Positions 24,485-28,463 of a stretch of 33,492 bases of DNA are shown here, one piece after another (the stretch's first letter is position 1; every line of letters begins with the position of its first letter). The notes under the pieces were generated by a model. It was not told the DNA's origin. It was given only the letters and a program-made list of their open reading frames with translations, and searched no databases. The position numbers and the translations under genes are program-made. Origin of the DNA: Candidatus Omnitrophota bacterium (GTDB lineage: Bacteria; Omnitrophota; Gorgyraeia; Gygaellales; Profunditerraquicolaceae); assembly GCA_028712175.1 (NCBI GenBank), contig JAQTQQ010000005.1, forward strand, positions 21,314 to 54,805, written 5' to 3'.

Positions 24485-25351
24485 CTAACTGCATTTCTTA
24501 ATCGCATCCGGAATATGCTCAATGATATCAGAGGCAATTAATCCCATCTGCGTCTTGTCTTTTGCTGCAATATCTCCGGCTAAGCCGTGCACATATGTTG
24601 CATATTTAGCAGCCATAAAACTATCCAAACCCTGCGCCAGAAACGCTCCGACTATACCGCTAAGCACATCACCGCTTCCAGCTGTCGCCATCCCCGGATT
24701 TCCGGTTTTATTTATATAACACTGTCCCATAGCACTAGTTACAGTGCTGTTATGCCCTTTAAGTATAATCGTACTATTATAGTATTTAGAGTACCTTTTC
24801 GCAACCAATTTCCTATTTTTCTTTACAAAACCAATACCTATCCCAAAGAGGCGGGCAAATTCTTTCTCATGAGGAGTTAGAATAAACTCCCCCTTGTGAT
24901 TCTTTAGTATAGCTAAATTTTTACAAAGCGCATTAATACCATCGGCATCAATAACCGTTGGCAAAGTTTGTGCCTTAATAATTTTTCTTACCAAAGCATA
25001 AGTCGATTTATTATTGCCCAGGCCAGGGCCGATTATTAACACATCAATTTTTTTAAGAAAATCCCTGATTTGAATAAAAGCGCCTTTACTTAAAAAACCT
25101 TCCGCGGTTTGAGCAAGCGGCAGGGTCATTACCTCTTTTGGCTTATTTCTGGTTATCGCCAGATTAATGCCTTTAGGTAAGCCCAACGTTACTAATCCTG
25201 CCCCGGAACGTATTGCTGAAGCGGCGCAAAGCAACGCTGCTCCGGAGAATCCGGCTGAGCCGGCAATAATCAGTATATGCCCGTAATCGCCTTTATGAGA
25301 ATCGGCTTTTCTTAGTAATAACCGCGCTGGCAACCGCATAAGTTTTAACAT
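24485..25351 (-). CDS. nnrD: ADP-dependent (S)-NAD(P)H-hydrate dehydratase, stand-alone C-terminal-type
   Basis: 288 aa; HKGDYGHILIIAGSAGFSGAALLCAASAIRSGAGLVTLG, IGPGLG, GNPGMATAGSGDVLSGIVGAFLAQG. Confidence 0.93.
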   Translation of the reverse strand: MLKLMRLPARLLLRKADSHKGDYGHILIIAGSAGFSGAALLCAASAIRSGAGLVTLGLPKGINLAITRNKPKEVMTLPLAQTAEGFLSKGAFIQIRDFLKKIDVLIIGPGLGNNKSTYALVRKIIKAQTLPTVIDADGINALCKNLAILKNHKGEFILTPHEKEFARLFGIGIGFVKKNRKLVAKRYSKYYNSTIILKGHNSTVTSAMGQCYINKTGNPGMATAGSGDVLSGIVGAFLAQGLDSFMAAKYATYVHGLAGDIAAKDKTQMGLIASDIIEHIPDAIKKCS

Positions 25352-25658
25352 GCGAAATAGAAATATGCACCCCGATGTCTTTACATTTCCCGTTTAAAAA
25401 TTCACAAATAGGTTTTCCGGACCGGTCATTTTGAACCTGTATATCCTGCCAGGAAAGCTTATTATCTCCTACCGCTTTAAAAACAGCTTCTTTAGCGGCA
25501 AATCTTCCGGCTAGATGCTGATAAAAAGAAACCCGGGTTTTGGCATTTTTTAATTCCGTTTTCGTAAAAACACGTGACAGGAAATCATCCCCCCATTTTT
25601 CAACCGCTTGGCGGATGCGGCGGACTTCAGTTATATCAACACCAGTACCGGTTATCAT
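25293..25658 (-). CDS. acpS: Holo-[acyl-carrier-protein] synthase
   Basis: 121 aa; GTGVDITEVRRIRQAV, FAAKEAVFKAVG, ISISHVKTYAVASAV. Confidence 0.95.
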   Translation of the reverse strand: MITGTGVDITEVRRIRQAVEKWGDDFLSRVFTKTELKNAKTRVSFYQHLAGRFAAKEAVFKAVGDNKLSWQDIQVQNDRSGKPICEFLNGKCKDIGVHISISHVKTYAVASAVITKKSRFS

Positions 25659-26371
25659 TTTTTTAAAATCCTGCGCATTTCTTTAACCGCTTTAAATAAA
25701 CCCGTATAAAGTGCTTTAGATATGATGGAATAGCCGATATTAAATTCATTGATTCCTTTAATCGCGGCGATTCTTTCAGTATTTGCATAATCAAGCCCGT
25801 GGCCGACATTAACAACCAGGCCTTTGGACAAGGCATAATCTACGGCATTCTTAATCTGATTAAAATACTTATTTTTGGCGGCGCAGTTTTCTGCCTGCGC
25901 ATAACGGCCGGTATGTAACTCGATTATTTCCGCTCCCGCAGCAATAGAAGAATCAATCTGCTTTTTATCCGGGTCAATAAACAGGCTCCCCCGCACGCCG
26001 GCTTTTTTAAGCAGCCTCAATGCCCGGGTAATTTTATTAAAGTTAAGGAAAACATCAAGCCCGCCTTCGGTAGTCAGTTCCTCCCTTTTTTCAGGAACCA
26101 GGGTAGCCTGATAAGGTTTAACCTTGCAGGCAATTTTTAGAATTTCCGGAGCTATGGACATTTCAAGGTTGAATTTAGTTTTAATTTTTTTAGAGAGATT
26201 AAAAACATCGCTATCCTGAATGTGCCTGCGGTCTTCACGCAGGTGCGCGACTATGCTGTCAGCTCCGGCTTTTTCGCATATAAGCGCAGAATTAACTGGA
26301 TCGGGAAATTTACCTTTACGGGCTTGGCGCAAAGTTGCTACGTGGTCAATATTTACCCCTAATTTAGGCAT
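25655..26371 (-). CDS. pdxJ: Pyridoxine 5'-phosphate synthase
   Basis: 238 aa; LGVNIDHVATLRQARKGKFPDPV, IVAHLREDRRHIQD, IELHTGRYA, VNVGHGLDYAN. Confidence 0.98.
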   Translation of the reverse strand: MPKLGVNIDHVATLRQARKGKFPDPVNSALICEKAGADSIVAHLREDRRHIQDSDVFNLSKKIKTKFNLEMSIAPEILKIACKVKPYQATLVPEKREELTTEGGLDVFLNFNKITRALRLLKKAGVRGSLFIDPDKKQIDSSIAAGAEIIELHTGRYAQAENCAAKNKYFNQIKNAVDYALSKGLVVNVGHGLDYANTERIAAIKGINEFNIGYSIISKALYTGLFKAVKEMRRILKK

Positions 26372-26379
26372 CTTTGATT

Positions 26380-26508
26380 TTATGGCCTTTCACCATTCGC
26401 ATAAAACCAAACAACAATGGCCAGGAGTAAAGAAATGAGCTTAAGCCATGGGTGGACAGTAACCAGGCTTGCTATTCTGGAAAGGGCGCTTTTCTTATTC
26501 TTATTCAT
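26380..26508 (-). CDS. Candidate 42-aa single-TM peptide resembling the N-terminus of CdaR/YbbR
   Basis: Reverse complement reads MNKNKKSALSRIASLVTVHPWLKLISLLLAIVVWFYANGERP*; overlaps the cdaA stop by 8 bp and ends 8 nt before pdxJ. Absent from the supplied ORF track (too short). Confidence 0.7.
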   Translation of the reverse strand: MNKNKKSALSRIASLVTVHPWLKLISLLLAIVVWFYANGERP

Positions 26509-27268
26509 CGTTATCAGTTTTAAGCAACTCTTTGATTCTTAGCTTTAGCTGCGGCCCGCCTAAATCCCTATAAAATTTTTTACGGTAAATTAAGGATATA
26601 TCGCTTCTTTCCTCTGAAACCACGATTAAAACAGCATCCGTTTCTTCGCTTAAGCCTAAAGCTGCCCGGTGCCGCGTACCGAAAAGCCGGCTAAGTTCCT
26701 GATTGGCCGTTAAAGGAAATATGCAGCCGGCCGCAGATAACCTTCCCCTTGCAATAATTAAACCTCCGTCATGAAGCGGGTTATTCGGGGTAAAAATTGC
26801 CTGAATCAAATCCGCGCTAATCCGCGCATCTACAACCTCTCCGCTATGGATATATTCGGCAAGGCTGTCTGTTTTTTCAACCGCAATCAACGCCCCAAGC
26901 CTATTTTGCGCAAGATTTTCACAGGCAAGGGTAACCTGATTAATAAAGATGTCAATATCTTCTTCTTTTAAGCTGTACCTAAAAAGGTGGCGTTTCCCAA
27001 GCGAGGCCAACCCCTGCCTAATCTCGGCTTGAAAAATAATTAAAATTGCGATGACACTAATTCCGAATAACTTGTTAAGCAGCCAGTTTAAAACAATAAA
27101 ATCAAATCTCTGGAATATTAAAAAAGCGAGCAGCAGCACGATTATCCCGCGCAAAGCTTGTAATGCCCGGGTGCCTTCAAAAAAAAGCATCAAGCGGTAA
27201 ATTAAAAACCAAAGGATAGCAATTTCAACAGCGGGTTTCCAGTGCAAGATTATATTATCTGTCAGCAT
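26501..27268 (-). CDS. cdaA: Diadenylate cyclase (CdaA/DacA)
   Basis: 255 aa; N-terminal TM helices, NNPLHDGGLIIARG (DGA-type motif) and FGTRHRAALG (RHR motif). Confidence 0.96.
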   Translation of the reverse strand: MLTDNIILHWKPAVEIAILWFLIYRLMLFFEGTRALQALRGIIVLLLAFLIFQRFDFIVLNWLLNKLFGISVIAILIIFQAEIRQGLASLGKRHLFRYSLKEEDIDIFINQVTLACENLAQNRLGALIAVEKTDSLAEYIHSGEVVDARISADLIQAIFTPNNPLHDGGLIIARGRLSAAGCIFPLTANQELSRLFGTRHRAALGLSEETDAVLIVVSEERSDISLIYRKKFYRDLGGPQLKLRIKELLKTDNDE

Positions 27269-28463
27269 TTTTTATGGCCTCAACCATTTTTAAAGACCGG
27301 CTTAGCTCTCCTACATCATGAACGCGCAGAATATTTGCGCCATTTTGCGCGGCAATCACACAACTGGCCAGGGTACCGTTAACCCTGTTTTCTAAGGTAT
27401 CCCCGAGAAGATTGGCAATAAAAGATTTCCGCGAAGTCCCTATAAGGATAGGTTTTCCCAAAACTTTAAAATCAGCCAATCTTTTTAATATCTGCAGGTT
27501 ATGAAAGGTAGTTTTACCGAATCCAATCCCCGGGTCTATAATAATTTTATCGTTCATTACTCCAAGCGAATGCGCTGAATCAACAGCACGCTTTAAATAA
27601 GCAGTAATGTCATCAATCAATGAACGATAGGAGATATTTTTCTGCATATTAACCGGCTTGCCGAGCATATGCATGATCACTACCGCCGCCTTGTATTTAA
27701 CTGCCAACCTCACCATGCTTTTATCCCTTAAACCTGAAACATCATTGATTATTTGAGCGCCTGCGTCTAAAGCGGCATCTGCTACTTCGGGCTTAAAAGT
27801 ATCGATAGAAACTGGTAAATTAATTTTTTTTACTAATAGCTTTACTACGGGCTTGATACGACGCAACTCTTCTTTGGTACTGACGCTTTTTGCGCCCGGC
27901 CTGCTGGATTGGCCACCAAGATCTATAATATCAGCTCCCTCCTGCGCCATCTGCTCCGCTTTCCTTAAAGCTAAATCAACATGGGCATTACCACATCCCC
28001 TATACAATCCATCCCCGCTAAAAGAATCAGGGGTAAGATTGATAATACCCATAATATGGGTTTTTCTTCCAAGATGCAAAGAGCGGCCCCTTAAGCGCAG
28101 GACGAAATTATCCCTAGTATAGCTTAGGAGATCTTTTTCTATATCTTCGCCTATTTGCTTAAGGCCAAAAGGCTGAAGTTTTAATTTGGATTTTAAAGAA
28201 TCAAATTGAGAAAGTGAACCAATGATAAGGACATCGGTTTTCTTGACTTTTCCGGTCAGCGCCCCACGGGCAACTGCCGCATCGGCTCCCAAAGAAAGCA
28301 TTTCCTGCTTGAGGATATTTGCAGCAATATTATTAATATTTTTTAAGTGAATTAAGAAATTTAAAGCTTTAGGCAGCATGATCTTTACCCCATAGGGGTC
28401 AACACCGATATCATGCATAATCTTTTTTACTTCTTTTTCATTATCAGGGGTAAAAACTCGCAT
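27255..28463 (-). CDS. folP: Dihydropteroate synthase with N-terminal extension
   Basis: 402 aa; MGIINLTPDSFSGDG, GADIIDLGGQSSRPGA, SIDTFKPEVADAAL, PIGTSRK-like ILIGTSRKSFI, with an extra N-terminal region of about 135 aa. Confidence 0.93.
   Translation of the reverse strand: MRVFTPDNEKEVKKIMHDIGVDPYGVKIMLPKALNFLIHLKNINNIAANILKQEMLSLGADAAVARGALTGKVKKTDVLIIGSLSQFDSLKSKLKLQPFGLKQIGEDIEKDLLSYTRDNFVLRLRGRSLHLGRKTHIMGIINLTPDSFSGDGLYRGCGNAHVDLALRKAEQMAQEGADIIDLGGQSSRPGAKSVSTKEELRRIKPVVKLLVKKINLPVSIDTFKPEVADAALDAGAQIINDVSGLRDKSMVRLAVKYKAAVVIMHMLGKPVNMQKNISYRSLIDDITAYLKRAVDSAHSLGVMNDKIIIDPGIGFGKTTFHNLQILKRLADFKVLGKPILIGTSRKSFIANLLGDTLENRVNGTLASCVIAAQNGANILRVHDVGELSRSLKMVEAIKNADR

Follow-up and report, generated by a model that had tools for sequence, protein, structure and literature searches.

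An anchor-only form of CdaR, reduced to a single membrane helix, is encoded behind cdaA in many Omnitrophota

Directly behind cdaA, an Omnitrophota genome carries a 42-codon open reading frame (ORF) that is probably a real, selected and reduced CdaR, consisting of the membrane anchor only and supporting the arrangement of CdaA, with its binding to the enzyme and its effect there being inferred. CdaA makes the signal molecule c-di-AMP, and CdaR is the membrane partner of CdaA. Homology of the ORF product (here mini-CdaR) to the CdaR anchor, its position, its conservation, the purifying selection acting on it, the loss of all YbbR domains and the repeated origin of such forms are observed, while gene order, an in-frame fusion and published contacts between the membrane domains of CdaA and CdaR strongly suggest, without demonstrating it, that mini-CdaR is a minimal membrane partner of the cyclase. 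In many Omnitrophota, CdaR has been trimmed to about 30-70 residues forming a single membrane helix, which is kept by selection.

The ORF occupies positions 26380..26508 of the minus strand of the window, i.e. the whole stretch of 33,492 nucleotides that was analyzed, and its position, sequence (MNKNKKSALSRIASLVTVHPWLKLISLLLAIVVWFYANGERP) and translation are exactly those of the preliminary description. On this strand a folP-like gene for a pterin-binding enzyme (27255..28463, PF00809 1.6e-79) overlaps cdaA (26501..27268), followed by the 42-codon ORF, by pdxJ (25655..26371, 238 aa, PF03740 1.1e-95), and by an ORF at 25293..25658, which by its sequence is probably a holo-ACP synthase gene (acpS). 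The product of cdaA is a membrane-bound diadenylate cyclase of 255 aa with CdaA_N and DAC domains (PF02457 1.6e-38, PF19293 3.1e-5), which passes TIGR00159 with 222.6 bits against a cut-off of 188.8. The start codon of mini-CdaR, an ATG, sits within the final 8 nt of cdaA (ATGAATAA, 26501..26508, minus strand), so that the end of cdaA and the beginning of mini-CdaR overlap; the same overlap recurs in 17 of the 25 genomes of the genus, and from it we infer translational coupling of the two genes. As described earlier, pdxJ begins 8 nt past the mini-CdaR stop, and it stands where the Firmicutes operon has glmM as third gene.

Residues 1-20 (26449..26508) form a basic segment that, judged from sequence and charge, is predicted to be cytoplasmic, and residues 21-37 (26398..26448) a predicted transmembrane helix, WLKLISLLLAIVVWFYA, which holds a conserved motif: a small-xxx-small face made of S26 and A30 (26419..26433, all on the minus strand), with W34 four residues further. 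The 42-aa protein had no match in Pfam, NCBIfam or the PDB.

Conservation speaks for a gene. A search of the class with the 42-aa sequence (E<=1) gives matches in 199 of 293 genomes, with few exceptions located directly behind cdaA, and when approximately 200 cdaA loci were taken and all downstream ORFs searched with an iterated profile, a homologous ORF was found directly 3' of unfused cdaA in 205 of 208 loci of the class. In two of the three exceptions cdaA runs into the contig edge; in the third (L092), a YbbR match immediately follows cdaA, so that this locus probably carries the long form, with the anchor missed by the profile. Within the window's family, the anchor model matches in 97 of 108 genomes, and in those without a match cdaA is undetectable or present only as a fragment or weak match, or a CdaA-YbbR fusion of ~480-515 aa is encoded. 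A chance ORF is excluded by the class-wide matches behind cdaA together with these 97 family genomes.

The ORF is moreover under purifying selection within the window's genus. For the 25 sequences compared, pS averages 0.72 and pN 0.24, pS exceeds pN in all 300 sequence pairs, and the median dN/dS is 0.19; values of 0.15-0.24 were obtained in four further families. As dS is partly saturated the ratio is only a guide, but its direction is consistent. The preliminary description had called for checks of synteny and dN/dS in relatives, naming a local deletion or pseudogene, or an unconserved peptide, as outcomes that would refute it. Both checks came out in its favor, and neither outcome occurred, since the short form is common to the whole family and is held by purifying selection.

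The identity of the peptide as the N-terminal anchor of CdaR/YbbR proteins, also proposed previously, is borne out by profile searches. In other Omnitrophota classes, a profile derived exclusively from short forms picks up full-length CdaR proteins at their N-terminus, next to cdaA. It likewise scores in Planctomycetota (63 of 200 genomes from the phylum to which a Brocadiia record belongs) and in Bacillota (118 of 199 genomes, phylum of an Aneurinibacillus record). Outside Omnitrophota these matches lie nearly all within frames of at least 240 aa, and nearly all retrieved examples from the two phyla are directly behind cdaA. A complementary search of 85,462 genomes for the helix as an exact DNA pattern returned 100 stretches, of which 80 were examined. 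Here, cdaA is nearby on the same strand in 75, and 70 are short, the latter from records named Omnitrophota, Omnitrophica or Susulua, plus one (L347) whose sequence matches a member of the window's genus (G008), while the stretches outside Omnitrophota belong to ORFs of 224-399 aa. Very short CdaRs were also seen behind cdaA in genomes of the Bacillota group (L383-L387); their readable open frames of 122-153 aa are longer than an anchor alone, and they were rejected as anchor-only forms, as was a weak 55-aa frame (G767) that has no adjoining cdaA and no anchor by a second profile. Based on the 80 stretches and the Bacillota-group lengths, no anchor-only form was seen outside Omnitrophota among the phyla sampled.

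Mini-CdaR hence fulfils two CdaR criteria, a gene directly downstream of cdaA (with the 8-nt overlap) and a homologous single N-terminal membrane anchor (by profile and shared residues), but fails a further one, presence of YbbR domains (PF07949). Lacking any such domain, it should be classed as an anchor-only CdaR derivative and not among the YbbR-domain proteins.

The extent of the external part differs within the class, where complete downstream ORFs fall into two size groups without intermediates. The short group (27-74 aa, median 44; 137 genomes, 27 families) comprises the anchor only, and the longer group (135-172 aa; 54 genomes, 20 families) the anchor and one YbbR domain, with both forms occurring in families f36 and f9. 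Because start codons were picked by rule, a given length may deviate by a few residues. The other classes of the phylum encode proteins of ~307-325 aa, with two to three detected YbbR stretches (PF07949), between cdaA and pdxJ. Another class also harbors a 56-aa anchor-only form (L259:1381-1548, minus strand), apparently an independent reduction. The median gap between short forms and pdxJ is 6 nt (131 short forms), with no decayed coding tail seen, and in f36 the short ORF even overlaps pdxJ. The earlier view that YbbR domains are absent rather than frameshifted is accordingly supported, and frameshift or local decay is rejected as the cause of the short ORF. Its notion of a mini form stands insofar as the anchor-only CdaR is real; it is however not peculiar to this genome, being recurrent across the phylum and accompanied by one-domain intermediates and full-length relatives. 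Together, the short forms make up a small-protein family of 27-74 aa that is unrecognized by the domain libraries searched.

A tree of 130 CdaA sequences, built by a quick method, indicates a minimum of 11 changes of size class (9 when the other classes are left out), and ten origins of the anchor-only form if loss is irreversible. Branch support is better for the large clade containing the window's order (95), for f9 (99) and f36 (87-99), and for f23 together with its one-domain sister groups (90). Anchor-only forms thus appear to have arisen repeatedly, about ten times, with the exact number uncertain because of weak deep branches and the quick tree method.

Gene order links the short forms further to CdaR. 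In all four genomes examined of family f31, cdaA is followed by a 47-aa mini-CdaR and glmM (e.g. L049:726-3042; glmM with TIGR01455 8e-150 in one genome), an arrangement equal to the canonical cdaA-cdaR-glmM operon except that the mini-protein stands in for CdaR. In one member of the window's family (G411, L248:1464-2363, minus strand), a single reading frame joins CdaA to the helix, yielding a fusion of 300 aa that is directly followed by pdxJ; the coverage of this contig is only ~2.5x, and a sequencing error is possible. Other loci (L131, L132, L133-L138, L113 and L099) encode a second type of cyclase, seen in some relatives, with ~485-498 aa composed of CdaA, a membrane helix and approximately two YbbR domains, and in two genomes of the window's genus a CdaA-YbbR fusion has apparently replaced the pair of cdaA and mini-CdaR. 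The catalytic motif reads HDGG in unfused Omnitrophota CdaA versus HDGA in the fusion-type enzymes. A genome of family f42 (G232, L157) displays two cdaA loci, one with a mini-CdaR resembling the f36 forms; the genome has 8% contamination, and this locus is probably mis-binned.

The conserved residues of the anchor are unchanged across every size class. Comparing 137 short and 55 one-domain forms with 20 CdaR of greater length from other classes and phyla, small residues at both the third and the seventh position after the conserved lysine (K+3 and K+7) are present in 99%, 96% and 100%, respectively, against 5-12% at other helix positions, and tryptophan at K+11 in 96%, 78% and 100%. Such 4-4 spacing represents a classic small-xxx-small packing face. 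The net charge in the class averages +2.8 on the N-terminal and +0.8 on the C-terminal side, and a single-pass protein oriented N-in/C-out is predicted.

In Firmicutes the contact between CdaA and CdaR lies in the membrane domains (PMC10243994, PMC8573169). We infer that mini-CdaR would be co-translated with CdaA and pack on the N-terminal membrane domain of the enzyme through the conserved [SA]xxxA...W side of its helix, which may help CdaA to adopt or hold a working oligomeric arrangement. Without YbbR domains, mini-CdaR would then be a constitutive structural subunit rather than a sensor of the cell envelope, with external sensing presumably lost. The small-xxx-small face could equally mediate self-dimerization. 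Structural and covariation data add little: the top pairs by mutual information between CdaA and the anchor do not exceed within-family shuffles (192 genomes, Neff 81, low power), and an AlphaFold model of the natural G411 fusion presents the mini part as a helix (pLDDT ~74-89) without packing data. A fold search with the fusion model gave only CdaA-type catalytic domains among the best 50 matches. For a CdaA-YbbR fusion the AlphaFold model is poor (pTM 0.36). No CdaR anchor or helix was found among solved structures by a PDB profile search; the CdaR-type structures found are isolated YbbR-type domains.

The alternative that survives best, unlikely as we judge it, is that the helix is a constitutive inhibitor or an assembly factor of CdaA, restraining the enzyme, for instance by keeping higher oligomers from forming. 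Depending on conditions, both activation and repression by CdaR have been reported (PMC8573169), in line with such a function, and the present data do not separate activation from inhibition. Against the main reading, no conclusive evidence that YbbR regulates DacA was found in S. aureus (PMC6368335). The mechanism by which CdaR controls CdaA is stated as unknown (PMC8573169, PMC10243994).

It is also conceivable that the helix merely anchors or dimerizes another, unidentified extracytoplasmic protein, with sensing kept in trans, and the separate CdaA-YbbR fusion proteins of a few relatives hint at this option. We nevertheless consider it quite improbable, as the window's genome (95% complete, 24 contigs) has no YbbR domain detectable by PF07949 of Pfam (E<=1) or by a model specific to the phylum (E<=0.1), and as the latter model finds none in 54 of the 59 genomes searched of the family. 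Of the five matches in the remaining genomes, four lie in frames whose length (485-514 aa) is that of CdaA-YbbR fusions, which have their own helix, and the fifth is weak and within a 6414-aa frame.

Two further readings were weighed and rejected. A leader that couples translation to pdxJ, with only the act of translation being of importance, would explain the tight spacing and overlaps on both sides of the ORF, but is very hard to reconcile with an amino-acid sequence kept across families, with the f31 ORF preceding glmM rather than pdxJ, and with the fusion of the helix to CdaA in G411. A degenerating cdaR remnant that lost its function along with the YbbR domains, as the long-form relatives in sister families and the coexistence of both forms in f36 and f9 might imply, is largely refuted and scarcely credible given the purifying selection, the lack of a decayed coding tail in the short gap to pdxJ (median 6 nt, 131 short forms), the anchor kept in 97 of 108 family genomes and invariant residues identical to those of longer CdaR.

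The reading of mini-CdaR as a reduced membrane partner of CdaA agrees with known systems in several respects. Firmicutes CdaR/YbbR is likewise encoded directly behind cdaA and shares the anchor motif K..[SA]...A...W.Y, and the cdaA-cdaR-glmM order of Firmicutes is fully matched in f31. Firmicutes CdaR however combines one membrane helix with three or four extracytoplasmic YbbR domains (PMC10243994), of which mini-CdaR has none. Chlamydia YbbR and Borrelia BT0009 are also encoded directly after the cyclase gene, and a holo-ACP synthase gene comes next after BT0009 (PMC8316131, PMC12422730), but both are annotated as YbbR-domain proteins, whereas mini-CdaR is helix-only. Streptococci possess natural in-frame CdaA-CdaR fusions (PMC10243994), comparable to the CdaA-YbbR fusions of Omnitrophota; the partner in the window is instead a separate peptide, and the G411 fusion, unlike the streptococcal one, carries the helix only.

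No description of an anchor-only CdaR was found in the literature, with subscription papers mostly outside the search, and within these bounds it is a previously undescribed form of a known protein. Omnitrophota are uncultured and mostly ultra-small according to one source (PMC10066038), which mentions neither c-di-AMP, YbbR nor CdaR. Considering that YbbR domains were lost about ten times with the helix being kept, and that unfused cdaA is practically never without the helix in the sampled genomes, the data suggest that what is essential in CdaR is the membrane helix rather than the external part. We lean slightly towards the more far-reaching proposal that the anchor-only CdaR is a sufficient and obligate CdaA subunit that evolved repeatedly by clean domain loss, with the YbbR domains as an optional sensing add-on. 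Nature appears to have conducted the domain-deletion experiment on CdaR approximately ten times, and the resulting anchor-only CdaRs, of 30-70 residues, represent natural minimal partners that are directly testable.
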